Shown: piece after piece, positions 1,237-41,366 of the stretch
How positions within the stretch are numbered: the first letter of the stretch is position 1
Layout: every line of letters starts with the position of its first letter
Assembly: GCA_934307065.1 (NCBI GenBank)
Contig: CAKRCD010000010.1
Coordinates: 19,404-83,403 of the forward strand
Origin: an uncultured Bariatricus sp.
GTDB taxonomy: Bacteria; Bacillota; Clostridia; Lachnospirales; Lachnospiraceae
DNA: 64,000 nucleotides
Direction of reading: 5' to 3'
Made by a program: the position numbers and the translations under genes
The notes under the pieces: generated by a model
What the model was told of the DNA's origin: nothing
The model's database searches: none
Seen by the model: the letters and a program-made list of their open reading frames with translations, nothing else

Positions 1237-1249
1237 GATTAAACATACT

Positions 1250-4759: not shown

Positions 4760-4876
4760 AATCATTCTTCCTTTATCCTTTCCATAATTGTAAATTCATT
4801 ACATCTACCATATCATCCGTACTATCTATTTACAAATTAATTTTTTCTATAAATCTTGAAAAAGACAATTAAGAGG

Positions 4877-4910: not shown

Positions 4911-4940
4911 CCCAATCGCTTATTTTCGCGCATTACCGTC

Positions 4941-7288: not shown

Positions 7289-7321
7289 TTTGCCTGCTTA
7301 GAGTCATTTTATTACAAATGC

Positions 7322-7350
7322 TTTACCTTTCCAAGTATTTCTGATAAAAT
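7322..7350 (+). promoter_or_regulatory. Predicted sigma-70-type promoter for the GT2 gene
   Basis: TTTACC (7322-7327) and TAAAAT (7345-7350) are separated by 17 bases and lie about 30 bases before the ATG at 7383. No other gene could use it in this direction. Confidence 0.55.
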
Positions 7351-7382
7351 ATTCTAAAAATTTGCACGGAAAAGGAGTTCTT

Positions 7383-18705: not shown

Positions 18706-18862
18706 TTTCCCCTGTCTCTCTTTCTGTATTCTCATATGTGTTTTCATGTGTCTTGTCATATGAGTTTACAGATTATTATCCACATTTTTCTCGATTCGTC
18801 AACCTTAAATTTTCATGATATGCGAATATCATGCTGAATCGCATAGATAAAATGAATGTCTT

Positions 18863-19390: not shown

Positions 19391-19473
19391 CAAAAAAACT
19401 CCACCAAATCACTCTTTACAAGTGTATTCAGTGAAGTTTTCTTCCATGCCCTCTTCCATCATGACCTTTTTCA

Positions 19474-20076: not shown

Positions 20077-20142
20077 TTCAGCCTCTTAACATCATTCTTC
20101 TTTTCATTATATGAATGATTTTCCAAAGATATGGTGCAAATT

Positions 20143-21423: not shown

Positions 21424-21593
21424 CAAATCTCTCCTACTCTTATTACCGATTATAGGTATATTTCCACATTTTCATACAGTTAAAGAAAACTATATCTGTT
21501 TTTTATGATACTGTCAATTTCACTCGGTATTTCTTAATAAAGATTTAACTTTGTTCTATGATGAATAAATTAGGAAAGAATTTTCCTAATAAA

Positions 21594-21633
21594 CAAAAAA
21601 GGATACCCGACCTATATCAGCCGAATACCCTTT
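21594..21633 (-). terminator. Intrinsic terminator of the MsmX/UgpC ATPase gene
   Basis: On the minus strand AAAGGGTATTCGGC pairs with GTCGGGTATCCTTT (with G-U pairs) and six U follow, about 40 bases past the stop. A second hairpin, ATTAGGAAA/TTTCCTAAT, lies at 21570-21590. Confidence 0.8.
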
Positions 21634-21672
21634 GATGCTTTTTTATTTACTCTTCTATCTTACCTACTCCGA

Positions 21673-22785
21673 TTAGTTGGTAATTACCATTTCTGTCTCT
21701 TTATCAAATACATGAATCTTTTCTGCATCAAATGCAAAGGAAACCGTATCTCCGGTTCTTGCTGTAGTTCTAGGATCTACTCTTGCAGTCATACTTGCAC
21801 CTTCATAGTCAAAGTATAAGTATACTTCTGCGCCGAGCATTTCATAGACACGAATCTTTGCATCAATTACAGTGTGTGGAGATGCCTGGATAAATGCAGG
21901 TTCGTCATGTACATCTTCCGGACGAATACCGAGAACGACCGTCTTTCCGTCATATCCGCCTTCGATTAATTTCTTTGCTTTTGCTTCCGGAAGCTCGATT
22001 CCTGCCTGACCAACCTGAAGTGTCACTTTTTCGCCTTCTACCTTGCATACAGCATCTAAGAAGTTCATCTGTGGCGAACCGATAAATCCGGCAACAAACA
22101 AGTTGCATGGGGTATCATAAAGTGCCTGTGGGGTATCTACCTGCTGCACAACACCACCGTTCATAACAACAATTCTTGTTCCAAGTGTCATAGCCTCTGT
22201 CTGGTCATGGGTAACATAAATGATGGTAGAACCAAGTCTCTGATGCAGCTTGGAAATCTCAATACGCATCTGTCCTCTTAACTTTGCATCCAGGTTAGAA
22301 AGTGGTTCATCCATAAGGAATACCTTTGGATTACGCACAATTGCACGACCCATGGCAACACGCTGTCTCTGTCCACCGGATAATGCTTTCGGCTTACGGT
22401 CTAACAGATTTTCCAAATCCAGAATCTTTGCTGCTTCACGCACCATCTTATCAATCTGGTCTTTTGGAACCTTTCTTAACTTCAGACCAAATGCCATATT
22501 CTCATATACGGTCATGTGTGGGTATAATGCATAGTTCTGGAATACCATTGCGATATCTCTGTCTTTTGGTTCTACATCGTTCATTACTTTTCCGTCAATC
22601 AGAAGTTCTCCTCCTGAAATCTCTTCCAGTCCGGCAATCATTCGAAGTGTGGTTGATTTTCCACATCCGGATGGTCCTACGAAAATAATAAATTCTTTAT
22701 CTGCAATTTCTAAATCAAAGTCTTTTACTGCTTCATATCCGTTTGGATATACCTTCTTAATATGCTTTAATGATAAGCTTGCCAT
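21673..22785 (-). CDS. ugpC: MsmX/UgpC-type sugar ABC transporter ATPase
   Basis: This 370-residue ATPase has Walker A GPSGCGKST, the Q-loop QNYALYP, signature LSGGQRQR, Walker B VFLMDEPLSNLDA and the switch His in YVTHDQTEA. The C-terminal regulatory OB/MOP region (about 240-370) ends in the family-typical GIRPEDVHDE and FDAEKIHVFD. Proteins of this type are shared ATPases serving several carbohydrate ABC importers. No permease genes are adjacent, and it has its own terminator. The importer at 60861-63919 lacks an ATPase and is a natural client. Confidence 0.95.
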   Translation of the reverse strand: MASLSLKHIKKVYPNGYEAVKDFDLEIADKEFIIFVGPSGCGKSTTLRMIAGLEEISGGELLIDGKVMNDVEPKDRDIAMVFQNYALYPHMTVYENMAFGLKLRKVPKDQIDKMVREAAKILDLENLLDRKPKALSGGQRQRVAMGRAIVRNPKVFLMDEPLSNLDAKLRGQMRIEISKLHQRLGSTIIYVTHDQTEAMTLGTRIVVMNGGVVQQVDTPQALYDTPCNLFVAGFIGSPQMNFLDAVCKVEGEKVTLQVGQAGIELPEAKAKKLIEGGYDGKTVVLGIRPEDVHDEPAFIQASPHTVIDAKIRVYEMLGAEVYLYFDYEGASMTARVDPRTTARTGDTVSFAFDAEKIHVFDKETEMVITN

Positions 22786-27352: not shown

Positions 27353-27406
27353 TCTGGGTAGTCTGTAAATATAAAGAAACGCAAGTCACACTTTATGACC
27401 TGCGCT

Positions 27407-27526
27407 CTACTCTGATTCCTTGCGAATCTCTTTCATATACTCCTGCATATCTTCTTCTATCTCAAACTCTGCCGCCTTAACTGCCTCTCCTACAAATGCA
27501 TCTTCCGCACATTTGAAAGCAAGCAT
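27407..27526 (-). pseudogene. Remnant of a small ORF (C-terminal 39 codons)
   Basis: An open frame of 39 codons (MLAFKCAEDAFVGEAVKA then a Glu-rich end) lacks a ribosome binding site, and the frame stays open a few codons upstream into the IS66 remnant junction near 27535. It looks like the tail of a gene cut by the transposase insertion. Family not recognised. Confidence 0.35.
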
Positions 27527-27539
27527 AGCTAAATTTTCT

Positions 27540-27680
27540 GTTGAAATTCAGGATTTAAACAGAAAGATGGAACTCCTGATTGAACAGATTGCTTTAGCAA
27601 ACAAGAATCGATTTGGACGTTCTTCTGAAAAGTTGGAAGATGCCAATCAAATCTGTTTCAAAGAAGTTGATGGAAACAAA
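27540..27680 (+). pseudogene. IS66-family transposase (TnpC) N-terminal fragment
   Basis: About 47 codons match the start of IS66 TnpC proteins by eye: EIQDLNRKMELLIEQIALA, then NRFGRSSEKLEDANQICF. The fragment is cut on both sides; the rest of tnpC and the tnpA/tnpB partners are absent. It shows that an IS66 element once inserted here and decayed. Confidence 0.75.
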
Positions 27681-27723
27681 ACCACCACTAAAATTTACTT
27701 TTTCAAATCAGTTTTACACCGAA

Positions 27724-28497
27724 TTAATTACAACCTCTTACTTGAATCAGTATCACCGTCACATTGTCATGCCCGCCATTTTCAAGTGCATAACTTACAA
27801 GTTTCCGTGCACTCTCCGCATCAATAGTGGACAATGTTTCTTTAATCACCGCTTCATCTACCATATCTGTCAATCCATCGCTACAGATTAAAAAAACATC
27901 CCCGTCTTGTATCTCGATTTCTTCCAGATAGGGAAGAATCTGTAATCCTTCCTCCGGCATACCTATATGTTGCGTCAAACGGTATTTCTTCCTTTTTTTC
28001 AGAATCTCCTGGAGTCCCATTTCCTCATATAGTTTTTTCTCTGTCTGTTCTTCATAGATTGCTCTCAATACTCCATCCCTATAAAGATAAATCGGACTGT
28101 CTCCTACGTTACAAGCAACTACTGTCTCATCAAAAAGCAACATGCTTGCAGTGGAGCCCATGGAAAGCCCTCGTTGTTTTTCTTCTCTTACTACAAGTTC
28201 ATTACCGTTCTGGCAAAGAGCTATTGCATCCTCTTTCAAATGCCCGGTATGCAGAGGGTATTTCTGACATGTCGCGGCCATAAGAGAAGAGGCAACTTCT
28301 CCATATGCTTCTCCTCCCATGCCATCAAAGACTCCATAAAGTACTGGTTCTGTAATACATATGTGGTTTTCGCATTCCATATGGTCTTCGGATTTTTCAT
28401 TGTATCTTCCATGAAACATAAAATTATCTTCATTCTTCTTCCGAATCATCCCCACATCACTGACCAGATAGGTTTGTAAATAATATGCTTTTTTCAT
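27724..28497 (-). CDS. PP2C-type Ser/Thr protein phosphatase of the T7-like locus
   Basis: Removes phosphate from Ser/Thr residues, with two metal ions bound by aspartates. Motifs in order: KKNEDN, GVFDGMGGEAYGEV, MGSTASMLLF, VACNVGDSPIYLY, LICSDGLTDMV and GGHDNVTVIL. The length of 257 residues is normal; an unusual acidic segment (GRYNEKSEDHMECENH) lies near residues 30-45. No membrane helix, so cytosolic. It is the last gene of the locus, four bases after the zinc-ribbon gene, and should reverse the action of the kinase at 35466-37634. Confidence 0.92.
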   Translation of the reverse strand: MKKAYYLQTYLVSDVGMIRKKNEDNFMFHGRYNEKSEDHMECENHICITEPVLYGVFDGMGGEAYGEVASSLMAATCQKYPLHTGHLKEDAIALCQNGNELVVREEKQRGLSMGSTASMLLFDETVVACNVGDSPIYLYRDGVLRAIYEEQTEKKLYEEMGLQEILKKRKKYRLTQHIGMPEEGLQILPYLEEIEIQDGDVFLICSDGLTDMVDEAVIKETLSTIDAESARKLVSYALENGGHDNVTVILIQVRGCN

Positions 28498-28501
28498 AAT
28501 C

Positions 28502-29272
28502 TTATTTCTTTATATAACCTTGTGAAAGAAGACTATTCTCGGTAAGTGTAATATCAAGTACACCTGTACCCGTACCTGTGAGTGTAAGCAATCCCTGGTC
28601 TACAAAATTTTTCACTACATCTTCATCCTCCAGATTCTTATATTCTAAACAAAACTTATAATAAGAATTAAGAGTCTCACCCTCAAAGGTAGCCGAAAAA
28701 TTTTCCCCCTCATATCCTTGAAATGCTTCCTGTATTTCAGTCTCCACGCTCTCTAATTCTTCCTGTGTAAAACTCGAAACATCTATATATCCGACATCCG
28801 TAAGATTTGAGATAATACCCGTATCTGCATCATAGGCTATGTCAATGCAGTCAATTGTTTCCAGTCCTTCGTCAGTGACTCCCACTTTCGCATAGCTTGC
28901 ACTGTCCTTTCCCAAAACAAGCATCGAAGGTTTGATAATACCTCTCTCTGTAAATATCTTGGTGTACTCTGGATTATCCTCTTTCTGTGTATCATCTTCC
29001 ACACTAGTCTCCACAGGCGTAGACGAATTAGATCCGCCTGACATATTTTCTCCGAGTTTTTTTCCTGCCGCCTGTCCAATCACATATGCCAGCAGTGGAA
29101 TTCCAATGATCAACAAAAGGCTTTTCTTTTTCATGACATTTTTAGATGTCTTGTTCTTGGACTCCTCCTGTTTTACCGGGTTTTGTGCAGTACTCTCCTC
29201 AAGTGGCATCCCGCATTGCTTGCAAATTCTGGTGTTATCTGGATTTTGTGTTCCACAATGTTTACAAATCAT
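28502..29272 (-). CDS. Zinc-ribbon membrane protein of the T7-like locus
   Basis: This 256-residue protein opens with a zinc ribbon (CKHCGTQNPDNTRICKQCG), then has a charged linker, one membrane helix (about 50-67, LLLIIGIPLLAYVIGQAAG) and an extracellular acidic domain of about 180 residues. I do not recognise the outer domain. The ribbon should face the cytosol. The cluster position, between YukD-like and PP2C genes, suggests it is a membrane component or sensor of the secretion system. Such zinc-ribbon plus membrane-helix proteins are common in Clostridia, so other roles are possible. Confidence 0.8.
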   Translation of the reverse strand: MICKHCGTQNPDNTRICKQCGMPLEESTAQNPVKQEESKNKTSKNVMKKKSLLLIIGIPLLAYVIGQAAGKKLGENMSGGSNSSTPVETSVEDDTQKEDNPEYTKIFTERGIIKPSMLVLGKDSASYAKVGVTDEGLETIDCIDIAYDADTGIISNLTDVGYIDVSSFTQEELESVETEIQEAFQGYEGENFSATFEGETLNSYYKFCLEYKNLEDEDVVKNFVDQGLLTLTGTGTGVLDITLTENSLLSQGYIKK

Positions 29273-29299
29273 ATTCTCTCTCCATTTCCTTCTCTTTCC

Positions 29300-29551
29300 T
29301 TACATCATCAGGAGCAGATCTCCATTTTGCATCCCATAATCCTGAGGGGTCTGGTCATAATCCAATATCTGCTCCTTATCTTTCAAACATAAAATCTCCT
29401 TGCCGGAAGCGCAATATCTTCCATTGGATAAAGTTTCTACAGCCTGTCCTAACAATTTTACCAAATCCAGTATCATCATAGACAAAGGAATCTTCAGATC
29501 AAAATTTTCACCAATTGCCGGTACATAAAGCTGTATGATGATATGTTCCAT
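29300..29551 (-). CDS. YukD/EsaB-like ubiquitin-fold protein
   Basis: This 83-residue protein has the features of the YukD/EsaB family found with type VII secretion: IIIQLYVPAIGENFDLKIP for the first beta hairpin and helix, and YDQTPQDYGMQNGDLLLMM for the ubiquitin-like end. YukD/EsaB proteins are required for T7SSb secretion or its regulation in Staphylococcus and Bacillus. It lies four bases after a small helical protein and 28 bases before the zinc-ribbon gene, so it is in the same operon. Confidence 0.8.
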   Translation of the reverse strand: MEHIIIQLYVPAIGENFDLKIPLSMMILDLVKLLGQAVETLSNGRYCASGKEILCLKDKEQILDYDQTPQDYGMQNGDLLLMM

Positions 29552-29554
29552 AAT

Positions 29555-29887
29555 TTATGAATCTCCTTCAATCGATAACGCACTTACCTTTGCTTTTAAC
29601 AAGTCTGCCGTTTCTTCAATCAATGCTTCGGTCTTAGTCATATCTCCAGTTGAATCCATCCAGATTACACGCATTCTCCTGATTTGATTGTTGGCATTTT
29701 TACAGGACTGTATCAGCTTATTAATCTCCGCATAATAAGCTAATCCATTCTCATCGTCCCATATATTTTTTAATTTTTCCTTCAAATTCTCCAGATTTTG
29801 AATATGTCCATCCAACTGTGCCGCATATTCCTCCATAATAGTAATCTTCTTTTCATAATGTGCTTTGGTATATTTAATAGTTGCCAT
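29555..29887 (-). CDS. Small helical WXG100-like protein
   Basis: This 110-residue, alpha-helical, cysteine-poor protein has the size and helix-turn-helix plan of WXG100 proteins: a first helix (about 8-40), a turn holding LKNIWDDENGLAYY, and a second helix. A clear W-x-G is absent; NIWDDENG takes its place. Candidates for its role are secreted substrate or substrate partner of the FtsK-type ATPase. It is four bases upstream of the YukD-like gene. The call is by architecture and neighbourhood, not by a recognised family match. Confidence 0.6.
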   Translation of the reverse strand: MATIKYTKAHYEKKITIMEEYAAQLDGHIQNLENLKEKLKNIWDDENGLAYYAEINKLIQSCKNANNQIRRMRVIWMDSTGDMTKTEALIEETADLLKAKVSALSIEGDS

Positions 29888-29972
29888 GATTCATGTTCTC
29901 CTTCCTACCATATCAGGTACTAAGTCACTGCTTATTCCTGACTATTCTTTTCCATCTGTGATTGCAGGGTTC

Positions 29973-30281
29973 CTAATTCGTAATCTTGGATACAAAATCT
30001 CCTACTGCCTCTACTTGCTTCTTGACCCAGTCTTCCAATGCATTTATTGACTTTTCGAATGCATTAATTGCATCCTTACACACATCTTCCAGCTTTCCCC
30101 AGTTCTCTTCCAACTGATTTCCTGCGTCTTGAATTGCTTTTAACACATCATCATCCTCTACAGGATCCCCAGAGCATTCTTCGTGGACTTTCCTCAAAAT
30201 CTGCTCCACCTCTGCAAATTCCGTTTCCATTTCTACCCGAAGGGCTTTGGCATCTTCAATGTTAATTTTTGTCTGATCCAT
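29973..30281 (-). CDS. Small acidic helical protein of the T7-like locus
   Basis: I use the start MDQTKINIEDAKAL, eight bases after GGAGG. The product of about 102 residues is acidic and mostly helical, with a turn region (GDPVEDDDVL) and a second helix containing ENWGKLEDVC, loosely like W-x-G. It ends in a hydrophobic KKQVEAVGDFVSKI. It could be a WXG100-type substrate or chaperone; I cannot recognise a family. Twenty-two bases separate it from the upstream coiled-coil gene. An 85-base gap follows before the next gene. Confidence 0.6.
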   Translation of the reverse strand: MDQTKINIEDAKALRVEMETEFAEVEQILRKVHEECSGDPVEDDDVLKAIQDAGNQLEENWGKLEDVCKDAINAFEKSINALEDWVKKQVEAVGDFVSKITN

Positions 30282-30303
30282 ATCATTTTCCTCCATTTCT
30301 CTT

Positions 30304-30564
30304 TTACATAATCTTGAAATCTTTCAACTGTTTATCCAGCTTCCGATACTCCTCTGGAAGATTTTCCAGGAAGTGCTGTCTTGCTTCAACGCTTTCTCTC
30401 AAGCGTCGAATTCGTTCTCTTTCTCCCCTCGATTCGCCAGGATCCATCATATTGACCATCTCATACCGTTCAAAATGGTCTTCGAATTTCCTGAGCTCAC
30501 GAAGTTCTTCCTCGATGAGAGATACATGTTCTTCTACTCCCCGTATCTCTATTCTAAGTTCCAT
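30304..30564 (-). CDS. Small coiled-coil protein of the T7-like locus
   Basis: The start MELRIEIRGVEEHVSLI is chosen because AGGGGAG lies nine bases upstream. About 86 residues, highly charged, with heptads (VSLIEEELRELRKFEDHFE and a second helix ending in YRKLDKQLKDFKIM). No signal peptide or membrane helix. It lies 53 bases after the 56-residue gene. Predicted to be a structural partner of the other small proteins; no known family is recognised. Confidence 0.6.
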   Translation of the reverse strand: MELRIEIRGVEEHVSLIEEELRELRKFEDHFERYEMVNMMDPGESRGERERIRRLRESVEARQHFLENLPEEYRKLDKQLKDFKIM

Positions 30565-30617
30565 AAGATTTTCTCCCCTCATAACAGTAAGGCTTAAACC
30601 GTTATCCTGTTGCCTGT

Positions 30618-30788
30618 TTATAGATTCTGTCTGATTTCCTGTATCACCAATTGTTCTTCTTTCACAACTTTCTGGTATTCCACGTAGATTTCTCCATCAA
30701 GAAATCTGTGAAGCTCCCTTAAGTCTTCTTCCCATCGCTGATACATACGATCACACTCTCTCATCAGCTCCATCTTTTCTTCATCCAT
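30618..30788 (-). CDS. 56-residue coiled-coil protein between EssC-like and small proteins
   Basis: The ATG at 30788 begins three bases after the EssC-like stop codon and reads through 56 codons to TAA at 30620-30618. The product is highly charged and helical (MDEEKMELMRECDRMYQ; RWEEDLRELHRFLDGE) with Trp and Tyr near the middle. Tight spacing implies translational coupling with the ATPase. It is short enough to be missed by automated gene callers. Function unknown; it may be a small subunit or adaptor. Confidence 0.65.
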   Translation of the reverse strand: MDEEKMELMRECDRMYQRWEEDLRELHRFLDGEIYVEYQKVVKEEQLVIQEIRQNL

Positions 30789-30791
30789 CTG

Positions 30792-33700
30792 CTACACCAC
30801 CGGTTTATCATCTTCATCTAAATAGGCAGATTTTAAAATGCCACAAGGCATTTGCATGGAATAAACTTCTCCCCGATACTGGAATACAAATCGATTGTAT
30901 GGAATTTCCTTTTTTATATTCAGGAACTCCGGGGCTAACCCACGAATGAGTCCTGCCTGGTCAAAACATCCACCGAAAAGCAGTGTCATTTCATCTTGCA
31001 GGAAACGCTTAAATGCCTCATTCCCGATTACTTTTTCTGCATCTTTGGCATAGAATCCACCGATAAAATACACATTGCATCGCTTGGCAATCTGAAAAAT
31101 CTGTGCAATCGTCGATGCCTGATTCTCCAAAAGATTCACAAAATCCACAAACCGCTCAATCAGAATCAAAATAGCTCCTGTCTTTTCTTCCATATAACTA
31201 TGCGCTGCCAGGCCGCTTCTTGAAAGACCCGGTGCCAGGCCTTCCTTCTCACAAAAATCAAGATAGATTTTTCTTCTTGCCAGAAGCTCATCCGTCAATT
31301 CGCTAAGATATGCTTCTGTACTTTCTTTTTTGCATGGTATCCGGCGAAGTTTATTTCTGTTTTTCATTCTCATCATAGTGGAAGATTTTGCCTCCAACAG
31401 ATGTATCTCCATTCCCTGCCGCTCTGCCGCATCCAGAATATTTTCAAAAATATCTTCCACACCCAGGGGATTACCCAAATACACCGGCAAGGTAGAGAAC
31501 TGACGAAGTGGTAAAGCCACCGGCTTCATATTCTTCAGATTATAACCCAATGGAAGTCTTCCTGCCTGGAACCTTTTACAGAAATCCTCATATGTCTCTG
31601 TTTCATCCAGATGCGGGAAGGCTTTTCTCCATCTGTAATCTCCCTTTTCTTTACTCTTTTCAATCCTTTCCCGGTAAAGCTGATAACGCTGCTCCGCTGT
31701 ATCCCACGGACGGTCCATGCAAAGCTGTAAAGCCAGCCCATCTTTTTCCTGAACTACCATACCGCGTCCTGCCCTCTGTTCCGGCAGACATTTGTTGCGA
31801 ATTCCCAGAACATCGTCATACTCATACCGATCCTTTAATTGTAAGGCAATACGTTGCGGAAGTTCCTGCTTGATTCTTGCTGTCAGTTCATTAAGATGAT
31901 CGGTAAAAATCAGGTACCGAATGCCATAATCTGTACTGCTTTTGATCTGATCCGCCAGATTGTAAAAATATGTGTCTCCTGATTTTGAAGCTTTTAATGC
32001 TCCTGCATTATCAATACATACAAGAATTAACGGCAGTTCTCCTATTTCCCTGTTCCGGCATGCTTCCTCATAACGAGTAATTCCATATTGTGCAAAAAGC
32101 TTTTTCCGCTCCGAAATAATCTCTTGTAACAATTCTTCAAAAGCCTTTAACTTTGCAACATTTTCTTCCTGAATCACCACTCCGCAATAAGGCGAATCCT
32201 CATACATCTCAAATCCACGTCCCGCAACATCAATCAGGTGAAATTGTACTTCCGATTCTTTGTAATGCTCTATTACATATTGTAAAATCGTATGTAGCAA
32301 AGTTGTTTTTCCGGAGCCTGCCTTTCCTACAATCCACATATGCTGCATCTTTCGCAAATACAGATACACCGGTTTCTGTAGCTGATGAGCCGGGTCATCC
32401 AGTATTCCAAGAGGAATTGGCAGATCTTCTATTGGCGCCTGATCCATTGATATGCTTTCCAAATCCAATTTTTGCGGAAGCGGATCCATCCATAAATACT
32501 TAGGCTCCAGACCGTTTCTTTTTGCAACCTCGGAAAGATAGTGCACAATCTCTGTCAACTGAGATTTCCCTGTTCCCTCTGCTTTTTCTTTTTTTCGAAG
32601 CGTTAAAACGGATTGCCCCATCATATCCAATACCTGTACACTTGCATCTTTATGATGGACTACTGTCTCCTGTGGTTTATACATGGCTCCTGCCCAGGCA
32701 GATTGTCCCATTGCAAAGTATTCATCATATCCCACCTGAAGATAGAAACGTCCTGTGTCTTTCAACGCTGCTGCCTCCGGTCTTTTCAGCATATCCATAC
32801 TGTCCGCTTTGTCTTGTACCTTCAAGCAGACACGAAACTTGGTGTTACTTCGAATCTGTTCATTTACCACACCGGAAGGCTTCTGAGTAGCCAGAATCAA
32901 ATGGACTCCTAAACTTCGGCCTATACGGGCAATACTGATTAATTTGTCCATGAACTCCGGTTCCTGCTGTTTCATTTCTGCAAACTCATCTGCTATAATA
33001 AAAAGATGCGGCATAGGTTCTTCTAATACCTTGTTGCGGTACAGACTTTGATAACTGTAGATATCGATTGAAGATTCTCCTGTCTTGCTTTTCACTTCGT
33101 TAAATATCCGCTGTCTTCTTTTCATCTCGCTTTCGATAGCAAGCAATGATCTTGTAATCATGGCGCCATCCAAGTTGGTAATCGTCCCAAGAAGATGGGG
33201 CAGACGAATTCCTCGTTCTTTATCTTCAAAGGCACCCGCCAGTCCGCCTCCTTTATAATCGATCAGAAGGAATGCAACTTCATCCGGATGGTAATTCACT
33301 GCCAATGACAAAATATATGTAATAATAAACTCACTTTTTCCCGAACCTGTCATACCGGCAACAAGTCCGTGTGGTCCCTGTGCTTTCTGATGCAAATCTA
33401 ACGTAAACAACGTCCCGTCTGTAGCCATCCCGATAGGTGCTGACAAGCTTTTCATAGGATTACTGTTTTTCCATCTCTCCAAAGGATTCAGATGTTCCAC
33501 TTTGCCTACCTGAAACATTTCCAAAAATGTTAAGGTTTTCGGAAGAGTATATCCATCCTGTATTACCTTCAGATACAGATTCGCGATTGCCTTCATAGAT
33601 TTCTGTTCCTTATATGGATCGTATGCATCTACGGAGAAAAAAACATCCTTTTTTTCAGCATCCTTAATATGAATCACTCGATGTAACCCCTGTGCATGGA

Positions 33701-35447
33701 GTTCAAATATCTTTGTGCACTCCTTCGGCACTTCCGGGAATACCGTCAAAACTCCTGCCCCTACATTTTTTTCACACCGGACTACATCCCGAATCACATC
33801 TATACTTTCATAAACCTTTTTATCTAAGGCAATAATCAGGTAAAACGGCCTTTTTCTTAAAATCTTATCCAGCTCCGTTCCAGCCTTTATATCCTCATCC
33901 AGCACCCCATGTAAGTAATCATTTAGTGCAAATCCTTCGGAGGAATCCGTAGCCAGAAAGCGGGTCGTCTTTCCATCATCCCACATATGCGGCAAATAGC
34001 GGATATATGGAATCTCATTTACCATATCCTCAGAAGCCAGAATACATATTTTCACCTCATCATAACTATGGGTCATGGCAATCTGGATTAAAACATTACG
34101 TATAAAAGACATGGTATCTTTTCGTTGTCCGGTCACACTGCAAACCGGCTCCTCCAGAAAAGAATGTAGAATTGGCACTCCTTCCAGAAGAATCTCCCGG
34201 TGTACCATCTCGTACATTTTCTTTTCCAGTTCATCCTCGTCAAGCTGAAATCTTTCTTTTTGATAATTATATTCCGCTTGTATAGGAATTTGTCCATGCC
34301 CGACAGGGATCCTCAGGAAATCATCATCCTGACTTCTTCTCTCCCAAAGTCTGAGACAGTTGTCAGGGAAATCCAATACCTGGTCTGTCGATGGATAATT
34401 ATAGGTAAGATAATGTTCTTCTTTTAATTTTTCTTCTCGAATTTCTTTCTCTTTATCCTGAAGATATTGCGTATATTTTTCTACTCTCCGTTCTTCATAC
34501 TCTTTCTTCTGCTTTTCCGTATACTTGGAATTTAAAATCGGAAAAAGTACCGAAGATACCATCGAAGTCATATTTCCCATAAACATACCACGGGCAGAGG
34601 ATACCATGGAGCCTCCCATTCGCAGCATCAGTGGTATCTGATCATGGTTCAACGACATAGGCGGCGCCTCAAATCTAATTTCTTCCGGCTTCATAGGAAG
34701 TCGCCTTCTCGGAGATCTGTGAATCAGCTTCTGGGACACATGCTCGTCCGAGCTGTCTCTGCCACTCATCAAATCATAAGGGAAAATTACCTGTTTCAAG
34801 CTCTCCTTATGAGTATGAATCCTGTTATTGCCATCGGTGATAGAAAAAAACTGATATCCTATAATCATATGCAGACCAAGAAAAGAAAGCTTATCTCCCG
34901 GATATAAACGTTTTTGTTCACTTCTTTTTCCATTGATATAAAGAAATAAACGGTCTTTACAATCAACCACTTCCCATGCTTTCCCCCTGCGTTCCAAAGC
35001 AAAGGATAGATCTGAAATCAAAGGATTATAGTAAATCAGGTCATTAGCCGGGTCTTTCCCAATACAGAGCCGATCTTTCTTTCCCGTAAAATAATTGTGA
35101 TAAATCCGACTTTCTTTATTGAAATATTCACAATACAGGAAAAAAAAGCTATCCCTTTGTTTTAGGATTGTCATTGCCCTGTCTTGTAAGGCGATTTTTT
35201 TATATTCGTTATTTTTCACATAAAAGGATACATCGTCTTTTGCGAAAGCCCGCCATTTTTCTTCCGCTCCTTCGATATAAAGCAGGTCTTCTTTTCCCTC
35301 AAAATGATAGCGGCCTTCCGGATAAATCGGAAGGGTCAGGCTCTCTACTTTTTCTCCAAGTAAATAAAGATGAATTCCCGTAGGAATGTCTGCCCGGTTA
35401 TGGCCGGTAGACATCTTCCCAAGGGTACCCTGATAGGTGTCTTCCAT
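30792..35447 (-). CDS. essC: EssC/YukB-type FtsK-SpoIIIE ATPase with FHA domain
   Basis: The 1551-residue motor of a type VII-like secretion system. Residues 124-200 form an FHA domain (CIGKDPANDL and NPLISDLS), which binds phosphothreonine. One or two membrane helices lie near 275-306. The first FtsK/SpoIIIE ATPase domain has Walker A GMTGSGKSE at about 698-706 and Walker B-like HLFIIADEF near 815; the second has GKAGSGKTT at about 1041-1049. A degenerate third ATPase-like region reaches the C-terminus. Staphylococcal and Bacillus EssC/YukBA have the same plan, with N-terminal FHA domains. It follows the kinase by 18 bases. Confidence 0.92.
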   Translation of the reverse strand: MEDTYQGTLGKMSTGHNRADIPTGIHLYLLGEKVESLTLPIYPEGRYHFEGKEDLLYIEGAEEKWRAFAKDDVSFYVKNNEYKKIALQDRAMTILKQRDSFFFLYCEYFNKESRIYHNYFTGKKDRLCIGKDPANDLIYYNPLISDLSFALERRGKAWEVVDCKDRLFLYINGKRSEQKRLYPGDKLSFLGLHMIIGYQFFSITDGNNRIHTHKESLKQVIFPYDLMSGRDSSDEHVSQKLIHRSPRRRLPMKPEEIRFEAPPMSLNHDQIPLMLRMGGSMVSSARGMFMGNMTSMVSSVLFPILNSKYTEKQKKEYEERRVEKYTQYLQDKEKEIREEKLKEEHYLTYNYPSTDQVLDFPDNCLRLWERRSQDDDFLRIPVGHGQIPIQAEYNYQKERFQLDEDELEKKMYEMVHREILLEGVPILHSFLEEPVCSVTGQRKDTMSFIRNVLIQIAMTHSYDEVKICILASEDMVNEIPYIRYLPHMWDDGKTTRFLATDSSEGFALNDYLHGVLDEDIKAGTELDKILRKRPFYLIIALDKKVYESIDVIRDVVRCEKNVGAGVLTVFPEVPKECTKIFELHAQGLHRVIHIKDAEKKDVFFSVDAYDPYKEQKSMKAIANLYLKVIQDGYTLPKTLTFLEMFQVGKVEHLNPLERWKNSNPMKSLSAPIGMATDGTLFTLDLHQKAQGPHGLVAGMTGSGKSEFIITYILSLAVNYHPDEVAFLLIDYKGGGLAGAFEDKERGIRLPHLLGTITNLDGAMITRSLLAIESEMKRRQRIFNEVKSKTGESSIDIYSYQSLYRNKVLEEPMPHLFIIADEFAEMKQQEPEFMDKLISIARIGRSLGVHLILATQKPSGVVNEQIRSNTKFRVCLKVQDKADSMDMLKRPEAAALKDTGRFYLQVGYDEYFAMGQSAWAGAMYKPQETVVHHKDASVQVLDMMGQSVLTLRKKEKAEGTGKSQLTEIVHYLSEVAKRNGLEPKYLWMDPLPQKLDLESISMDQAPIEDLPIPLGILDDPAHQLQKPVYLYLRKMQHMWIVGKAGSGKTTLLHTILQYVIEHYKESEVQFHLIDVAGRGFEMYEDSPYCGVVIQEENVAKLKAFEELLQEIISERKKLFAQYGITRYEEACRNREIGELPLILVCIDNAGALKASKSGDTYFYNLADQIKSSTDYGIRYLIFTDHLNELTARIKQELPQRIALQLKDRYEYDDVLGIRNKCLPEQRAGRGMVVQEKDGLALQLCMDRPWDTAEQRYQLYRERIEKSKEKGDYRWRKAFPHLDETETYEDFCKRFQAGRLPLGYNLKNMKPVALPLRQFSTLPVYLGNPLGVEDIFENILDAAERQGMEIHLLEAKSSTMMRMKNRNKLRRIPCKKESTEAYLSELTDELLARRKIYLDFCEKEGLAPGLSRSGLAAHSYMEEKTGAILILIERFVDFVNLLENQASTIAQIFQIAKRCNVYFIGGFYAKDAEKVIGNEAFKRFLQDEMTLLFGGCFDQAGLIRGLAPEFLNIKKEIPYNRFVFQYRGEVYSMQMPCGILKSAYLDEDDKPVV

Positions 35448-35465
35448 AGTCTTCCCTTCCTTTCT

Positions 35466-37634
35466 TTACTCTAATCGATAGAGGTCCTGTATCTCCTCCA
35501 AAATACTTTTGACTACTTTAGCATCTTTACCGGTATGCATAACGCAATCCGTTAACTGGCCCGCCTCGTTATAAAGCATTTTGGTAATTGTCAAATTTCC
35601 GCCCTGAACCACGATTTGATGACTGTCTTCGGCCAGATATGTATAATTCAAATAGTAAACACCGGTAGGTTTTTTAGACGAAATGCAATAGATTCTGTCT
35701 TCTGTCAAAACCACACCTTCCTGTGCTCCCAAATTGCGCTTCACACTGGATGTTATTGATAATATGGACGGCTTAACATGGAGATATACTCTACGCCCCT
35801 CTCCTATACTACAAAACGACCGTAACTCTTTATCCTTAATTTCAAATGCATGACCACGATTGCCGAAAGATAACTGACCGTCATATTTTTTCAGGATTTT
35901 TAAAATCTGTTCTTTTGCATAGGTACTGCCGATTTTATTTGTCGTAATCAACTCCTCTGCATCATAGCCATTCCGGCATGCCTTCAGGACATAGCGAAAT
36001 GCCATTTCGGAGTCTCCTTTTTCTTCATAAATTAATGCATAGTTTCGATACATTAATCGGTTTACTGTGCTGACAGAGCATTCCCCTTTTCTCCAATGCT
36101 GATGAGCCTTGGACTGCATTTCCAATGCCTGCTCATATTGTCCCGCATGCAGATAACAGGTTCCTAAGAAATGATAGATTGCTCCATCTCTTGAATCCAA
36201 ATCCAGTGCTCTTTCCAGCTGGATTCTGGCTCTTTCATACTCAGAAACATCAATGTAGGAAAGCCCAATGCGAAGGTGTAATTGTGCACTGTTCTCATCC
36301 TTTTGGAGAAGGTTTTCATAAAGGCGCAAGCGTTCTTTGAAAGTACTTCTTTCACTTTCCTGAAACATTCTTTTCATCTCTGTTGTCTTTGCCGTATTCT
36401 GCTCCAAAAAAATTTCTCCGCAGGAAGGACAGTAATACCCCTGGCTAAAGAACAGATAAGAAGTTCCGCCACATTGCGGACAAATACTTTGCAAAGGTTC
36501 TGGTTCAGATTCCAATTCTGGTTCCGGCTCCGGTTCTGGTTCAGGTTTCGGCGTTGGACCTAATTTCTGCTCTGGTCCTGGTTTCGGTTCTGAGCCTGGA
36601 TTTTTCTCAGGGTCACCTTTCTTCTTTTCTTCTTCCAATTTACGAAGCATCTCTTGAAGTTCTTCCAGATCTTCTGAGCCAATATGCATAGTCTTTTCAG
36701 CCGGTTCTCCATAAAACTTTTCTGAAAGAGCCTGTAAATCAGCTTTCATCTCTGCTGCACTTTGGTAACGGTCTTTTTGATCGTAAGCACAAGCTTTTCT
36801 TATAACATCATTGAGGCGTCCTATCCCTTGAATCTCCGGAAGTTCCTGACCACTAAGTCTTTTCACAATTGCCCTTTCCCGATCCATCGGGTAATATGGC
36901 TCAGGGTATGGCGGTAAAAAAGGCATCCGTCCATTGTTCAATACTTCATAAAGCGTCAGACCCAATGCATAGATATCTACAAGATGTCCATAAGGTTCCA
37001 TACGGACAATCTCCGGTGCCATATAGGTCTTGGTTCCTTTTTGTGAAAGCGTCACACTTGTGCTTTCTATTTCTCTGGATATTCCAAAATCTCCAATCTT
37101 ATATTCTCCGAAATCTGAGACAAAAATATTGTCAGGCTTAATATCTCTGTGAATCAACTTTGCCTGATGGCAAAATTCCAATCCTGTCAGAACATCTATC
37201 CCCATCTTTATTACATCCTGTGTGGACATTCCCTTTTCCTGAATAAATGTATTCAGATTCGTCAGCAATTCCATTCGAATATAGATGCTCCACCCAATCG
37301 TTTCTGGTTCTTCCACCACATCATAATCTTCAATCGCCACAACATGGCTGGCTGACTTCATTCTCTCCATCAGCTCAATCTCATTGGTTAATTGTTCCAC
37401 ACTTGCTTTATAGTACTCACGAATACTTTTTTCATCCATTCTGGAAGCCCGCATATCGCTTAATTCTGCTGGGTCATTAGGAATCCGGATCACTTTTATA
37501 GCACTATATTTCTCTTTTTGACCCAAAAGTTCTTTTCGCGCTTTATATACTTTCCCAAATCCACCGGAGCCAATCTCCGACTCTATCTTCCATCCCGACC
37601 AAATTTCTTGTATCTCATTCCTATTTTCTACCAT
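35466..37634 (-). CDS. Soluble Ser/Thr protein kinase with zinc ribbon and TPRs
   Basis: Residues 15-300 form an active-looking kinase: GSGGFGKVYKA, the lysine in AIKVIR, catalytic LIHRDIKPDN, DFG (KIGDFGIS) and APE. A Pro/Glu repeat linker (about 350-385), a zinc ribbon (CPQCGG and CPSCGE, about 389-410), TPR-like helices (about 430-560) and a C-terminal domain (about 590-726) follow. No membrane helix. Start choice is uncertain: ATG 37634 is 12 bases after GGGGG, and a TTG four codons upstream is an alternative. Its probable targets include the FHA ATPase next door, and the PP2C at 27724-28497 would oppose it. Confidence 0.9.
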   Translation of the reverse strand: MVENRNEIQEIWSGWKIESEIGSGGFGKVYKARKELLGQKEKYSAIKVIRIPNDPAELSDMRASRMDEKSIREYYKASVEQLTNEIELMERMKSASHVVAIEDYDVVEEPETIGWSIYIRMELLTNLNTFIQEKGMSTQDVIKMGIDVLTGLEFCHQAKLIHRDIKPDNIFVSDFGEYKIGDFGISREIESTSVTLSQKGTKTYMAPEIVRMEPYGHLVDIYALGLTLYEVLNNGRMPFLPPYPEPYYPMDRERAIVKRLSGQELPEIQGIGRLNDVIRKACAYDQKDRYQSAAEMKADLQALSEKFYGEPAEKTMHIGSEDLEELQEMLRKLEEEKKKGDPEKNPGSEPKPGPEQKLGPTPKPEPEPEPEPELESEPEPLQSICPQCGGTSYLFFSQGYYCPSCGEIFLEQNTAKTTEMKRMFQESERSTFKERLRLYENLLQKDENSAQLHLRIGLSYIDVSEYERARIQLERALDLDSRDGAIYHFLGTCYLHAGQYEQALEMQSKAHQHWRKGECSVSTVNRLMYRNYALIYEEKGDSEMAFRYVLKACRNGYDAEELITTNKIGSTYAKEQILKILKKYDGQLSFGNRGHAFEIKDKELRSFCSIGEGRRVYLHVKPSILSITSSVKRNLGAQEGVVLTEDRIYCISSKKPTGVYYLNYTYLAEDSHQIVVQGGNLTITKMLYNEAGQLTDCVMHTGKDAKVVKSILEEIQDLYRLE

Positions 37635-37714
37635 TTTTCTGTTCAATCCCCCTTTTTCGTAGTTTAAGCGTAACTATTCAGGTATTTATCTTTAATCACG
37701 CCTTTAAACTGCTT

Positions 37715-38989
37715 TTATATCAGGTTTAGCAGAACTTCCAGCCTTCTGTTTTTCGAGAACGCCGGGGTTCCATCTTTTTTCATAATTTGCCAGACCATGG
37801 AATAGACACCTTCAATCGGTGGGGTTGCAAATTCCACTTTGACGGAAATCTTTTCACCGGGCATGACACGTTTTTTGAATGGTACGCATAATTCCCTTTT
37901 TGCGTATGAAAAGTTATCTCCGTTGATGCACTCCAAATAATATTCATTCCATATAGTTGTTCCTGTATTTTGAATAATCCAGGTATGAGAATACAGATTT
38001 CCTGAAATGACTGTGACCGGAAGCCGAGGTATTTCTTCTATGACATTATAATTTCCACCTTTTTTTATCTTGGATACTTTCTCATCTTCATAATCCATTA
38101 CCGTGAAATGTAATCCTATTCCCAATCTATCCGGAAAAGCATCATTGCCATTACTGTCCTTCATTTTCCAGGTCATAACATAAGTTCCGGGTTTGTCCGG
38201 TGCATCAAATGATACACTTGGAGACACTTTATCCCCCGGATAAACAAATTTGGGAAGCTGGAGGATTCTGTTTCCCTCATCTAGTTCCATCATGGGCTGA
38301 TTACATTCATAATATCGATTCTCCCATAATGTATCCCCCACATTTTTCATGATCCACGTATGATTTATCCGTTCTCCCGGTGATACAATGCTCATATCTG
38401 GTGGATATTCATGTTGAAATAATGCTCCGTCTTTTCTGGTTGAACTATTACCATCCTCTTCTTCCTTAAGACGCGTATGCTGCTCCTGATTATATATGTA
38501 CTTTACATAAATCTGATTAATTTCTTCCGGAAAAATAGCCATGAGAACATAAAACGTCAGGACATTCTCCCATTTTGTTTTTAACCGGTTCGTCTCAGTA
38601 TCAAACAAATATTCCCTAAGGTTTCTGGAAATCTCGATTTCTTCTTCATTTATGATTTGTAAAAAGGCCTCATTCATGCCCTTTTCAGAGAGTTGCCCAT
38701 ATAAAAGAGCCTTTGCTTTCCCCTCTATCCTCGAAATAGCCCACGGGTGTTCGAACAAATATGTGCGCAATGTTGCAATATATCTTGCTTCTCTTTTGCA
38801 GTCCGAAAGGAATCTGCTTCTTCGCGCTTTATCATTCCAGATTTTACAATTGAGCCATCGTATTTCTATGGGAAGAAGCTCTTCAAAAAAATCTTTTTTC
38901 GAGCGATATTTTGGAGGAACTTTCCAAACAGACGGAAGTTTTTCACATTTGCCCGGATAAAAAATCTCGTAAACCTCTTTTAAATTCAT
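37715..38989 (-). CDS. Protein with two NBR1-type Ig-like domains
   Basis: This 424-residue protein starts at ATG 38989 after AGGAGG. Residues 1-190 are a helical, basic and aromatic-rich region I cannot place. Two NBR1-type (next-to-BRCA1) Ig-like domains follow, near 205-310 (HTWIMKNVGDTLW) and 325-424 (HTWIIQNTGTTIW). Each shows the Trp-containing strand and the later strand with GxYxMxWxM. The domain is known in eukaryotic autophagy receptors and in bacterial surface or kinase-linked proteins. There is no signal peptide. It precedes the kinase gene by 80 bases with its own promoter-like repeat, so it may be the first gene of the secretion operon. Confidence 0.75.
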   Translation of the reverse strand: MNLKEVYEIFYPGKCEKLPSVWKVPPKYRSKKDFFEELLPIEIRWLNCKIWNDKARRSRFLSDCKREARYIATLRTYLFEHPWAISRIEGKAKALLYGQLSEKGMNEAFLQIINEEEIEISRNLREYLFDTETNRLKTKWENVLTFYVLMAIFPEEINQIYVKYIYNQEQHTRLKEEEDGNSSTRKDGALFQHEYPPDMSIVSPGERINHTWIMKNVGDTLWENRYYECNQPMMELDEGNRILQLPKFVYPGDKVSPSVSFDAPDKPGTYVMTWKMKDSNGNDAFPDRLGIGLHFTVMDYEDEKVSKIKKGGNYNVIEEIPRLPVTVISGNLYSHTWIIQNTGTTIWNEYYLECINGDNFSYAKRELCVPFKKRVMPGEKISVKVEFATPPIEGVYSMVWQIMKKDGTPAFSKNRRLEVLLNLI

Positions 38990-39212: not shown

Positions 39213-40307
39213 TTATAAGCTGAACAATCTTTTCCAAAATGATTTCTTCTCTGGAACACTTTCCGTTACTGTTTTATTATTCTCAACTTCTTCAGAAACG
39301 GATGTAATCGTTACCATAACTGGGTTCACAATCGTACATTCCCATTTATTATAGCAATCGCGGAGCAAGGACAGTGCTTCAATAAATTTTGCCACATCAA
39401 CTCCATCACCTGCATCTAACATCTGTTTTTCAAATGTTCCATTCCAGGCTGCAAACAAAAGCCCAACTGCAGGTATATACGGAATATATTTAACGAAATC
39501 CACACAAATTACCGCCTGTTTATAGAAAGTGAAAAGACCCATGGAAATAACCATTTTTTCTTTTTGAACGTTACTCAAAGCATTCCACTGATCACAAGTG
39601 AATTTCTTCTTAGTCAAGCTTGTATACAAACCGCTTTGAATAATACTTTCCATTTCGCCTTTGGCTATTTTCATAGCTTTAACAAACGCAGGCTTTTCAT
39701 TCATCTCTTTCAGAAATACATCGACTTCATTTTTTTCTTCCGTTTTTTCTTTCTCTTGCTCAGAGAGTGAAGTATCCGTCGCAACAGCCTGTTCTTCAAC
39801 AGCTTCGTTTGTCGATGTCTCTCGAACAGAAATCCACGGATATAACTGCATAATCAGCATTTCCCACTGGAAAAGACCTTGTTTTCCACCCAGTGGAACC
39901 TGCAGCTCTAAAGTCCATTTCGGAATTAGCATATTGAGAACACCATCCATTTTTTCCAGTCGGTTCAAAATATTAAAAATCGTACACCCTAACACCTTTT
40001 GAATCTTTGGAGTTAATCGTATATATAAGGTCCCAGATTCAATATCCTGATTTATTGATCCAATACCAATATTAGATATCACTCTAATCACAGTTTCTTT
40101 ATCGGCATCGCTTAATCCGTCAAACTGTTCAGAGGTAATATGCCCCCCTCCATCAGTCGTTAATAATCCGCAATTGTTCTTTGCTTCAGAAAGCGCCAAT
40201 ACTTCCAATTGTTCAAGTAATTTCTCGTTCTGCTTTCCATCTACTTTATCATATACGCGCCCTATTGCACTAAATTCTCCACTTCTCCATGCAATCTTTC
40301 TATTCAT
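39213..40307 (-). CDS. 364-residue protein of unknown function, T7-locus associated
   Basis: I do not recognise a family. The sequence opens with MNRKIAWRSGEFSAIGRVYD, has a helical middle and a Glu/Lys-rich linker (about 178-200). A second half follows with a hydrophobic stretch (YIPYIPAVGLLFAAWNGTFEK) and a basic end (KSFWKRLFSL). No signal peptide is visible. The two halves repeat a motif: EQFDGLSDADKETVIRVISN early on and CDQWNALSNVQKEKMVISMG later, hinting at internal duplication. It shares the upstream 76-bp element with the NBR1-Ig gene, which links it to this locus. AAGGAG precedes the ATG at a slightly long distance. Confidence 0.75.
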   Translation of the reverse strand: MNRKIAWRSGEFSAIGRVYDKVDGKQNEKLLEQLEVLALSEAKNNCGLLTTDGGGHITSEQFDGLSDADKETVIRVISNIGIGSINQDIESGTLYIRLTPKIQKVLGCTIFNILNRLEKMDGVLNMLIPKWTLELQVPLGGKQGLFQWEMLIMQLYPWISVRETSTNEAVEEQAVATDTSLSEQEKEKTEEKNEVDVFLKEMNEKPAFVKAMKIAKGEMESIIQSGLYTSLTKKKFTCDQWNALSNVQKEKMVISMGLFTFYKQAVICVDFVKYIPYIPAVGLLFAAWNGTFEKQMLDAGDGVDVAKFIEALSLLRDCYNKWECTIVNPVMVTITSVSEEVENNKTVTESVPEKKSFWKRLFSL

Positions 40308-40580: not shown

Positions 40581-40910
40581 TTATTTCCTTGTATGAAAAT
40601 TTAACTGTTTATCTATATCTCGTCCGGCATACATTATTCTAAGAATTGTTACAACTCTTTTATCACTATCTGAAATATAAAGTACCACATAATTATCTAC
40701 AGGTAATACATGAAGTCCACGGCTTTTCCACGGTTCTTTTTCATATTTTCGATAACGCTCCGGCATAGTATCCAGACTTAATATCTGTTCTTCCAGACGC
40801 TCAAGCTGCCCGCTTGCATTTTCTGGCGATTGTAATTCAAAAGCAATATATTCAAAAATTCCTCTCAAATCATTGTCAGCCTGTTCGGATACTTCTACCT
40901 CATATATCAT
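40581..40910 (-). CDS. ParE/RelE-type toxin
   Basis: This 109-residue toxin-fold protein has the family pattern SEQADNDLRGIFEYIAFELQSP, then PERYRKYEKEPWKSRGL and DNYVVLYISDSDKRVVTILRIMYAGRD. ParE inhibits gyrase and RelE cleaves mRNA on the ribosome; sequence alone does not decide which. It overlaps the antitoxin stop by four bases (ATGA), the usual coupling for such modules. It is placed after the antitoxin and lacks a separate promoter. No membrane segment. Confidence 0.87.
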   Translation of the reverse strand: MIYEVEVSEQADNDLRGIFEYIAFELQSPENASGQLERLEEQILSLDTMPERYRKYEKEPWKSRGLHVLPVDNYVVLYISDSDKRVVTILRIMYAGRDIDKQLNFHTRK

Positions 40911-41215
40911 AAGCCATAATCCTTGCGAATGTCAGCAAATACTTTCTTCGCATTTTTTGTCCGTCCAGCTTGCATATCCGCATATCCTTTCTCCAGTTCT
41001 TCATTGAACTCTGTTTCTGATAATGTGCTGATGTCGACAGGTTTTGCAGATGGTAGTTTTACTTCAAACGGAAGTCCTCTCTGCAAAATAATTTGTTTAT
41101 AAAACATATTGATAGCACTGGAAGCAGGGATACCAAGTGCAGCCAGAATACTTTCTGCTTTTTCTTTAACATCCGGTTCAATCCTTGCATATAAATTTGC
41201 TGATTTTGTAGCCAT
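40907..41215 (-). CDS. RelB/DinJ-family antitoxin
   Basis: The start MATKSANLYARIEPDVKE has GAAAGGAG at about eight bases and agrees with the promoter at 41258-41286. The product of 102 residues has a ribbon-helix-helix N-terminus (NLYARIEPDVKEKAESILAALG) and the family stretch IPASSAINMFYKQIILQRGLPFEVKLP. The disordered C-terminus (ETEFNEELEKGYADM) should wrap the toxin. It would bind its own promoter and repress the pair. It overlaps the toxin start by four bases. Confidence 0.9.
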   Translation of the reverse strand: MATKSANLYARIEPDVKEKAESILAALGIPASSAINMFYKQIILQRGLPFEVKLPSAKPVDISTLSETEFNEELEKGYADMQAGRTKNAKKVFADIRKDYGL

Positions 41216-41257
41216 ACAAAATTTCTCCTTTCGCGAGTAGTGTTTCCATCCATTTTT

Positions 41258-41286
41258 ATTATATGTATATGTCCGCACAATAGCAA
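41258..41286 (-). promoter_or_regulatory. Predicted promoter of the toxin-antitoxin pair
   Basis: TTGCTA (41286-41281) and TATAAT (41263-41258) have an exact 17-base spacer, about 45 bases before the antitoxin ATG. Confidence 0.75.
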
Positions 41287-41321
41287 TACTTATTTCGCAC
41301 TCGCAAAAAACGATAACCAAC

Positions 41322-41366
41322 AAAAAAGGCACAACCGAGGGATTTTCTCCCGCGGGCTGTGCCTTT
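41322..41366 (-). terminator. Intrinsic terminator of the Gld-type ABC operon
   Basis: AAAGGCACAGCC pairs with GGTTGTGCCTTT (41325-41366) with one G-U pair, followed by U; about 35 bases past the DUF4340 stop. Confidence 0.85.

Follow-up and report, generated by a model that had tools for sequence, protein, structure and literature searches.

A type VII-like gene cluster with a kinase, a phosphatase and an EssC of shortened membrane segment in an uncultured Bariatricus species

Introduction

EssC/EccC ATPases are regarded as the pore-forming membrane motors of type VII secretion systems (T7SS). A locus in an uncultured Bariatricus sp. (Lachnospiraceae) raises the question of whether such a motor must be the channel itself: the membrane anchor of its EssC is cut by 22–23 residues, and the clade to which this EssC belongs is well represented in metagenomic proteins. 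The window, i.e. the whole stretch of 64,000 nucleotides that was analysed (assembly GCA_934307065.1, contig CAKRCD010000010.1, positions 19,404 to 83,403), carries an operon of ten co-directional genes on the minus strand at 27724–38989, with no gap larger than 85 bp. From 5′ to 3′ these encode an NBR1-Ig protein, a Ser/Thr kinase, EssC, four small helical proteins, a YukD-like protein, a protein with a zinc ribbon and a transmembrane (TM) helix, and a PP2C phosphatase (Table 1). A preliminary description made from the sequence alone had named this gene run as a candidate type VII-like system; all of the genes are present and their domains are confirmed, those of YukD and WXG100 at scores below Pfam cut-offs.

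The cluster is read here, at about even confidence, as a phosphorylation-tuned type VII-like translocation system, a sibling of T7SSd, T7SSe and T7SSj, whose EssC has a shortened membrane hairpin. The motor is perhaps not a self-contained channel.

The EssC-type ATPase and its clade

The ATPase exceeds the curated cut-off of the EssC equivalog (778.4 bits) and is a member of that family. Among solved structures its best relative is YukB of Bacillus subtilis (E 4.7e-115), determined as part of the T7SSb core unit, the alignment running through FHA, stalk and D1, and an AlphaFold2 model of residues 1–420 matches the twin FHA of Geobacillus and Staphylococcus aureus EssC (5fwh/1wv3). The twin FHA (∼24–220) is followed by the shortened membrane segment (272–309) and the ATPase domains. 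Pfam matches are to FtsK_SpoIIIE (1.7e-46) and FHA (1.9e-4, barely over the cut-off).

In the homology search, 7995 candidates were scored, 6148 were found at E ≤ 1e-3, and 120 of these are listed. Three trees of 147, 179 and 205 tips were constructed, one without the FHA and membrane parts; their sampling omitted homologs of up to 1400 amino acids, together with roughly two thirds of those after P0025. The window EssC falls in its own clade (63, 65 and 65 tips), with a split support of 1.0 in all three trees. The clade consists mostly of metagenomic proteins, with named members from gut Bacillota and three Coriobacteriales sequences (Adlercreutzia and its order). Its sister holds a Neobacillus/Bacillus/Paenibacillus group and a group of Coriobacteriales, the order to which Olsenella belongs. 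Two loci of the former (L010, L018) display the T7SSe gene set, comprising EssC, YukD, WXG100-size genes, an FHA protein, PP2C and a TM kinase, and a TsdI-like protein of 1400–1900 amino acids is present in five of eight fetched stretches of the latter; the T7SSe and T7SSd labels of these groups are given by gene content and taxon, without named reference proteins. Loci L181, L183, L185 and L220–L223 are outside the trees, and their best matches are sister-clade tips.

In species-level genomes the clade is sporadic. Besides the centre genome, members were found in 0 of 42, 1 of 396, at least 2 of 296 (15 weaker matches not placed), 0 of 390 (all matches placed) and 0 of 393 genomes (at E ≤ 1e-240) in five genome sets. 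There is no sign of mobility, though the distribution is sporadic. A plasmid origin was considered and rejected, as tblastn matches in 698 plasmid records are all below 60% identity and none extends over 80% of the query; so was a viral origin, with three remote loci on viral contigs.

Shortened membrane segment

The segment P272–Y309 is 38 residues long in 63 of 65 clade members, whereas it is 60 or 61 residues long in 101 of 106 sisters. All of the 120 listed homologs (of 6148) display, when aligned, the short segment or less. An alignment-free distance between motifs gives the same picture, with a median of 86 in the clade (63 measured, 2 missed) versus 109 in the sisters (65 measured, 41 missed), and with one long uncharged run in the clade instead of two. 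The best 19-residue hydropathy of the segment has a median of 1.56 in the clade versus 1.84 in the sisters; over the whole window EssC, the best 19 residues (1.35) lie in an ATPase domain, outside the membrane segment. By a simple hydropathy test for TM helices, the zinc-ribbon protein is the only one of the cluster to pass; the kinase and EssC fail. By length, the approximately 33 residues appear too short for two ordinary TM helices. The segment could instead form a re-entrant hairpin, cross the membrane once or lie peripherally, and sequence cannot prove EssC to be soluble.

A second clade with a short segment (support 0.987) comprises the EssC proteins of genomes G153 and G283 (43 residues) and G869, G811 and G995 (32 residues), with segment hydropathies of 1.43 or less. 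All other segments measured outside the window clade have at least 48 residues; the one T7SSb EssC measured (L112) has 50.

The short anchor might also be viewed as decay, the cluster being a remnant of a T7SSe/j-like system in which membrane hairpin and phosphothreonine site are eroding. The FHA residues lost (see below), a second Arg in the membrane segment of the window EssC and the IS66-like fragment seen by eye just downstream are in line with this view. But all ten frames are open, the kinase, PP2C and Walker motifs are intact, and the EssC cluster P0001 (96%) has 169 member sequences. In addition, residues R276, G278, G291 and P303 are invariant in 26 sequences, and together with the uniform length of the segment this indicates conservation and not decay. 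A decaying remnant is considered very improbable.

FHA domain and phosphorylation

Five positions are usual for phosphothreonine binding in FHA domains: G, R, S, H and N. The window EssC has G130, K131, S145, S148 and L167, i.e. K, S and L stand in place of R, H and N. Exactly ten of the 120 listed homologs (of 6148) display the K/S/L state, and these are the ten nearest to the window (P0001–P0010). The full set is found in 79, and the N-terminus of a Massilimicrobiota EssC (L146) keeps all five residues, and its TPR kinase is of the same kind. In T7SSb, the same residue loss goes with phosphorylation-independent docking of FHA on EssB (PMC11217815; PMC4925161).

The preliminary description took the FHA domain for a phosphothreonine reader. 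A switch would then operate in which a threonine, once phosphorylated by the kinase, is bound by the FHA domain of EssC so that secretion opens, with PP2C returning the system to its initial state. Such a switch is raised as a possibility for related subtypes in a 2024 study (PMC11217815), and both the 79 canonical homologs and the Massilimicrobiota protein are consistent with it. Because of K131, S148 and L167, and with the same replacements in the ten nearest homologs, phospho-gating through FHA is not supported for the window EssC; a search of the window by profile matched only EssC and no other FHA gene. For this locus the switch is judged improbable. It seems plausible for parts of the clade, not for the window EssC. 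Of the first proposal, an EssC system without EssB or EsaA, with an active-looking kinase and PP2C in a recurring set, is supported; a phosphothreonine-reading FHA domain is not, for this protein. The natural split between relatives with and without this FHA site, whose kinase and phosphatase are of the same kind, opens phospho-gating of type VII secretion to direct testing.

The kinase consists of a kinase domain, a linker with a possible zinc ribbon, TPRs and a C-terminal region. The catalytic residues K51, D168 of HRD and DFG at 186–188 are intact, and the enzyme looks active, as had been proposed. Its start codon is TTG, with an ATG 12 bases further in. By eye, residues 590–726 after the TPRs resemble a PH-like beta domain; there is no Pfam match in this region.

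Neighbourhood of related EssC genes

Nine same-clade loci were found outside the protein list. One on a 3.8-kb contig (L100) was dropped and eight were compared; L001, L002, L008, L035 and L143 are one-sided or nearly so, and the GC-rich L142 and L143 were examined by tblastn instead of gene calls. YukD is present in six of the eight. The closest named locus, L035 comes from a Massilimicrobiota metagenome-assembled genome (MAG), and its EssC is accompanied by four small proteins, YukD, PP2C and an 800-amino-acid TPR kinase without TM segment; the zinc-ribbon protein is absent from it, the contig beginning inside EssC so that the upstream side is not covered. L142 carries YukD and small proteins, and no kinase within 17 kb. 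A TM segment is predicted in the kinases of L001, L002, L003 and L005, and in neither the window kinase nor that of L035. Since the small proteins and YukD recur beside EssC in relatives such as L035, they are not chance open reading frames (ORFs). Among the small helical proteins, the WXG100 profile matches only that of 110 amino acids. In the second short-segment clade, WXG100-like genes, a DUF4176-like gene, PP2C and a kinase are found in all five loci.

Two of these neighbourhoods contain other genes. In L003, from a Faecalibacterium MAG, the EssC locus (16410–21957) has a VWA-FHA membrane protein, two PP2Cs and a TPR-NPCBM kinase, and looks like another variant of the same gene grammar. 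In L001 (6813–12192), a trypsin-like protease with a C-terminal FHA lies beside EssC and a kinase that weakly matches beta-propellers.

Components of type VII systems searched for

As in the preliminary description, EsaA, EssA and EssB are not seen: there is no NCBIfam match among ten proteins, i.e. nine of the cluster and one upstream, with the 56-amino-acid ORF left out. By profile, EssB (TIGR03926) is found in none of eight relatives' genomes (G001–G007 and G291, with G007 belonging to the sister clade) and EsaA (TIGR03929) in none of 11 over the cut-off, seven of which display weaker matches to the EsaA N-terminus. B. subtilis controls were positive in both searches, and that for EsaA was also positive, below the cut-off, in three other genomes. 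EssA was looked for in cluster proteins only. These negatives cover the cluster and relatives' genomes, several of which are MAGs and possibly incomplete; the remaining genome of the window strain may still carry the genes. No test made identifies the zinc-ribbon protein as EssB, EssA or EsaA.

NBR1-Ig and zinc-ribbon proteins

Eukaryotic FW domains can bind cargo (PMC9582228) and bacterial FW proteins are known (PMC9233695). Searches of the open-access literature turned up no report that links NBR1-Ig to type VII systems and none that deals with the window EssC clade. A homolog of the window NBR1-Ig protein, P0222, is 50% identical and is assigned to a Blautia MAG. The protein occurs in three of 397 genomes of one family, that of G006 (G153, G283 and G398), and in three of 20 genomes of the genus of G398 (G398, G764 and G755). 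In G153 and G283, EssC is directly preceded by a gene for an NBR1-Ig protein that is 84% and 80% identical to that of the window; the EssC proteins of the two genomes are nearly identical, and they are counted as one event. As the G153 EssC is only 36% identical to the window EssC over its best part, NBR1-Ig is linked to two distant EssC lineages.

At another locus (L172, genome G764, 848–8336), NBR1-Ig lies beside an SPFH-SHOCT protein, a HerA/DUF87 ATPase and a TIR/TPR membrane protein, with a MetRS-like frame adjoining; this looks like an uncharacterised conflict system. In G398, NBR1 and the C-terminal portion of a HerA/DUF87 ATPase are joined in one frame. These arrangements suggest that NBR1-Ig is a partner of FtsK/HerA pumps in general.

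The HerA-type neighbours in G764 and G398 also feed a different explanation, namely that the cluster encodes a non-secretory, cytosolic complex of a conflict or defence type, built round an FtsK/HerA pump, to which the kinase, phosphatase and ubiquitin-like protein would belong and in which NBR1-Ig would be the recognition module. The collapse of the membrane segment in two EssC clades, the sporadic distribution and the lack of LXG genes over the cut-off in 14 relatives' genomes are in keeping with such a complex. But WXG100-like and YukD genes, which recur beside EssC, are the standard type VII signature, the locus holds a TM protein, and PADLOC matches are at the level of domains only. The defence-type complex is thought unlikely. 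MADS defence was considered by name and rejected, as PADLOC gave partial domain matches only, to two of the set's families (mad6 and mad8).

For the zinc-ribbon protein, EssC P0002 and zinc-ribbon protein P0159 are on contigs of the same size (33,699 bp), as are zinc-ribbon protein P0153 and NBR1-Ig P0191 (54,897 bp). This is a hint that the protein travels with EssC and NBR1-Ig; matching contig sizes are not proof.

Proposed activity of the cluster

In the phosphorylation-tuned translocation system that is favoured here, EssC would be a hexameric pump with YukD docked on the first ATPase domain, and cargo would be brought or accompanied to EssC by the WXG100-like and other small helical proteins. 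The kinase and PP2C may set the activity of the system via phosphorylation of some component and not via phosphothreonine binding by the EssC FHA; the twin FHA more probably serves as a platform for constitutive docking, as in T7SSb. NBR1-Ig might act as a cargo receptor or adaptor of facultative kind, while membrane attachment or an outside sensor might come from the zinc-ribbon/TM/YehR protein.

For this reading speak the EssC score and the YukB alignment, the close gene spacing, the make-up of L035 and of the second-clade loci, the replaced FHA residues and the short segment. A number of observations weigh against it. The co-occurrence of kinase, PP2C and ATPase anticipated by the preliminary description does recur (it extends to all second-clade loci), but within the window clade the kinase is found in only five of the eight loci (L001, L002, L003, L005 and L035, that of L001 being only distantly similar) and PP2C in three (L002, L003 and L035), some loci being one-sided. 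NBR1-Ig is present in none of the eight, five of which have ∼6 kb or more upstream of EssC, and in three of the five genomes having NBR1-Ig (G398, G764 and G755) the stretches fetched have no EssC beside it; with its absence from three of five second-clade loci, NBR1-Ig was rejected as an obligate component. For the zinc-ribbon protein no more than 43 homologs are found, none of them below 45% identity. LXG genes were over the cut-off in 0 of 14 relatives' genomes (one weaker match in G811, B. subtilis control positive), so that the usual T7SSb effectors are not evident, and no toxin-like substrate was recognised in the window cluster. As to the short anchor, hydropathy is borderline, a value of 1.6 being reached by 25 of 65 clade members and 95 of 106 sisters. 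The AlphaFold2 model speaks for the short anchor, giving residues 269–306 a pLDDT below 50 with no long helix and no TM helices, but it represents a fragment (1–420) without partners.

A broader hypothesis, held tentatively and rated on the unlikely side, is that there is a class of EssC without the two-helix anchor that has arisen in two lineages, both with kinase and PP2C and each with at least one NBR1-Ig-adjacent member. Such an EssC would be a peripheral or soluble pump docked by other proteins, with phosphorylation-controlled membrane engagement and, in some members, choice of cargo by an FW adaptor.

Features of the operon and its flanks

Intergenic spacings along the operon are 68, 18, 3, 35, 7, 85, 3, 27 and 4 bp. 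The hairpin downstream is a consensus match only, such sites numbering 11 found versus 8.3 expected.

Table 1. Coordinates of the ten genes and the putative terminator in the window
Feature	Position	Strand	Basis
NBR1-Ig (FW) protein, 424 aa	37715..38989	-	PF16158 3.1e-27; two N_BRCA1_IG stretches after ∼200-aa N-terminal region
Ser/Thr kinase, 726 aa	35466..37646	-	PF00069 3.2e-43; TPR_12 (PF13424) 1.8e-8
EssC-type FtsK/HerA ATPase, 1551 aa	30792..35447	-	TIGR03928 875.7 bits; YukB (9qks) match; AlphaFold2 model
Small helical protein, 56 aa	30618..30788	-	ORF; phmmer matches 3′ of EssC in L035, L002, L143
Small helical protein, 92 aa, start uncertain	30304..30582	-	Relatives in L035, L008
Small helical protein, 107 aa	29973..30296	-	Relatives in L035, L002, L142
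WXG100-like protein, 110 aa, possible hinge WDDENG	29555..29887	-	WXG100 3e-4, below Pfam cut-off; relatives in L035, L002, L005, L008, L142
YukD/EsaB-like ubiquitin-fold protein, 83 aa	29300..29551	-	YukD 7.7e-5, below Pfam cut-off; local profile 3.9e-23
Zinc ribbon + one TM helix + YehR-fold domain, 256 aa	28502..29272	-	Zinc ribbon 4.5e-7
PP2C Ser/Thr phosphatase, 257 aa	27724..28497	-	PF00481 1.6e-10; DGMGG, SDG, GHDN motifs
Terminator-like hairpin 3′ of operon	27377..27407	-	14-pair stem and T-rich tail
aa, amino acids.

The next gene upstream (39213–40307, 364 amino acids, 223 bp from NBR1-Ig) encodes a protein that matches nothing in Pfam, NCBIfam or PADLOC with the limits applied. The cluster is flanked by ordinary chromosomal genes, with MetRS, PTS, DUF4340 and ABC auxiliary genes by Pfam, and by frames below the cluster that are presumably holB-like and PSP1-like. 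An N-terminal fragment of an IS66-like transposase was seen by eye on the plus strand at 27500–27720, just 3′ of the PP2C gene, and after it comes an ORF tail on the minus strand; a RelE/RelB(DinJ)-like toxin–antitoxin pair, also by eye, lies upstream of the operon at 40581–41332.

Comparison with known systems

The preliminary description left open whether the subtype had been named. Type VII systems with kinase, PP2C and FHA (T7SSc–j) were described in 2024 (Garrett et al., PMC11217815), and the window system is a variant of this published kind. By its position in the trees, the window EssC clade appears to be none of the T7SSd/e-like groups tested; the trees held no named TsjC or TsfC.

According to the same paper, T7SSj of Clostridium resembles the window cluster in its EssC with N-terminal FHA, TPR kinase, PP2C, YukD and WXG100, and it is described there without EsaA, EssA and EssB. 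It differs in TsjI, a large envelope protein, and TsjJ, a DUF6382-FHA protein, neither of which was found in the window, and in TsjC, whose phosphothreonine FHA site is conserved (PMC11217815). NBR1-Ig and the zinc-ribbon/YehR protein, on the other hand, are present in the window, unlike in T7SSj. The kinase (D) and PP2C (F) of the T7SSe and T7SSj loci are both represented in the window, and the TPRs of the T7SSj kinase likewise. No TsxI was found, the largest non-EssC protein of the cluster having 726 amino acids and the largest other window ORF 947, and no separate FHA protein TsxJ, as only EssC matched the profile. TsxK, compared by description, is a small single-TM component; the only one-TM protein of the cluster is the zinc-ribbon protein.

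T7SSe and T7SSd, the nearest large EssC group in the trees, share kinase, PP2C (e), YukD (e), WXG100 and an FHA-EssC with the window. They differ in the length of the membrane segment (60–61 versus 38 residues), in their I and J components and in a separate EssC clade, and the window kinase is without TM segment. T7SSb (EsxA/EssA/EssB/EsaA/EssC) is similar in EssC fold, twin FHA without the phosphothreonine residues, YukD and WXG100-like proteins; it has EsaA and EssB, not found here, whereas the window has an active-looking kinase, a PP2C and a shorter segment (38 versus 50 residues, L112). The NBR1 and ILRUN FW proteins and bacterial FW proteins share N_BRCA1_IG domains with the window protein, which is bacterial and stands beside a type VII-like motor. 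What is new relative to these systems is that the anchor is cut in two clades, that the phosphothreonine site has been lost naturally and that NBR1-Ig is an occasional partner.

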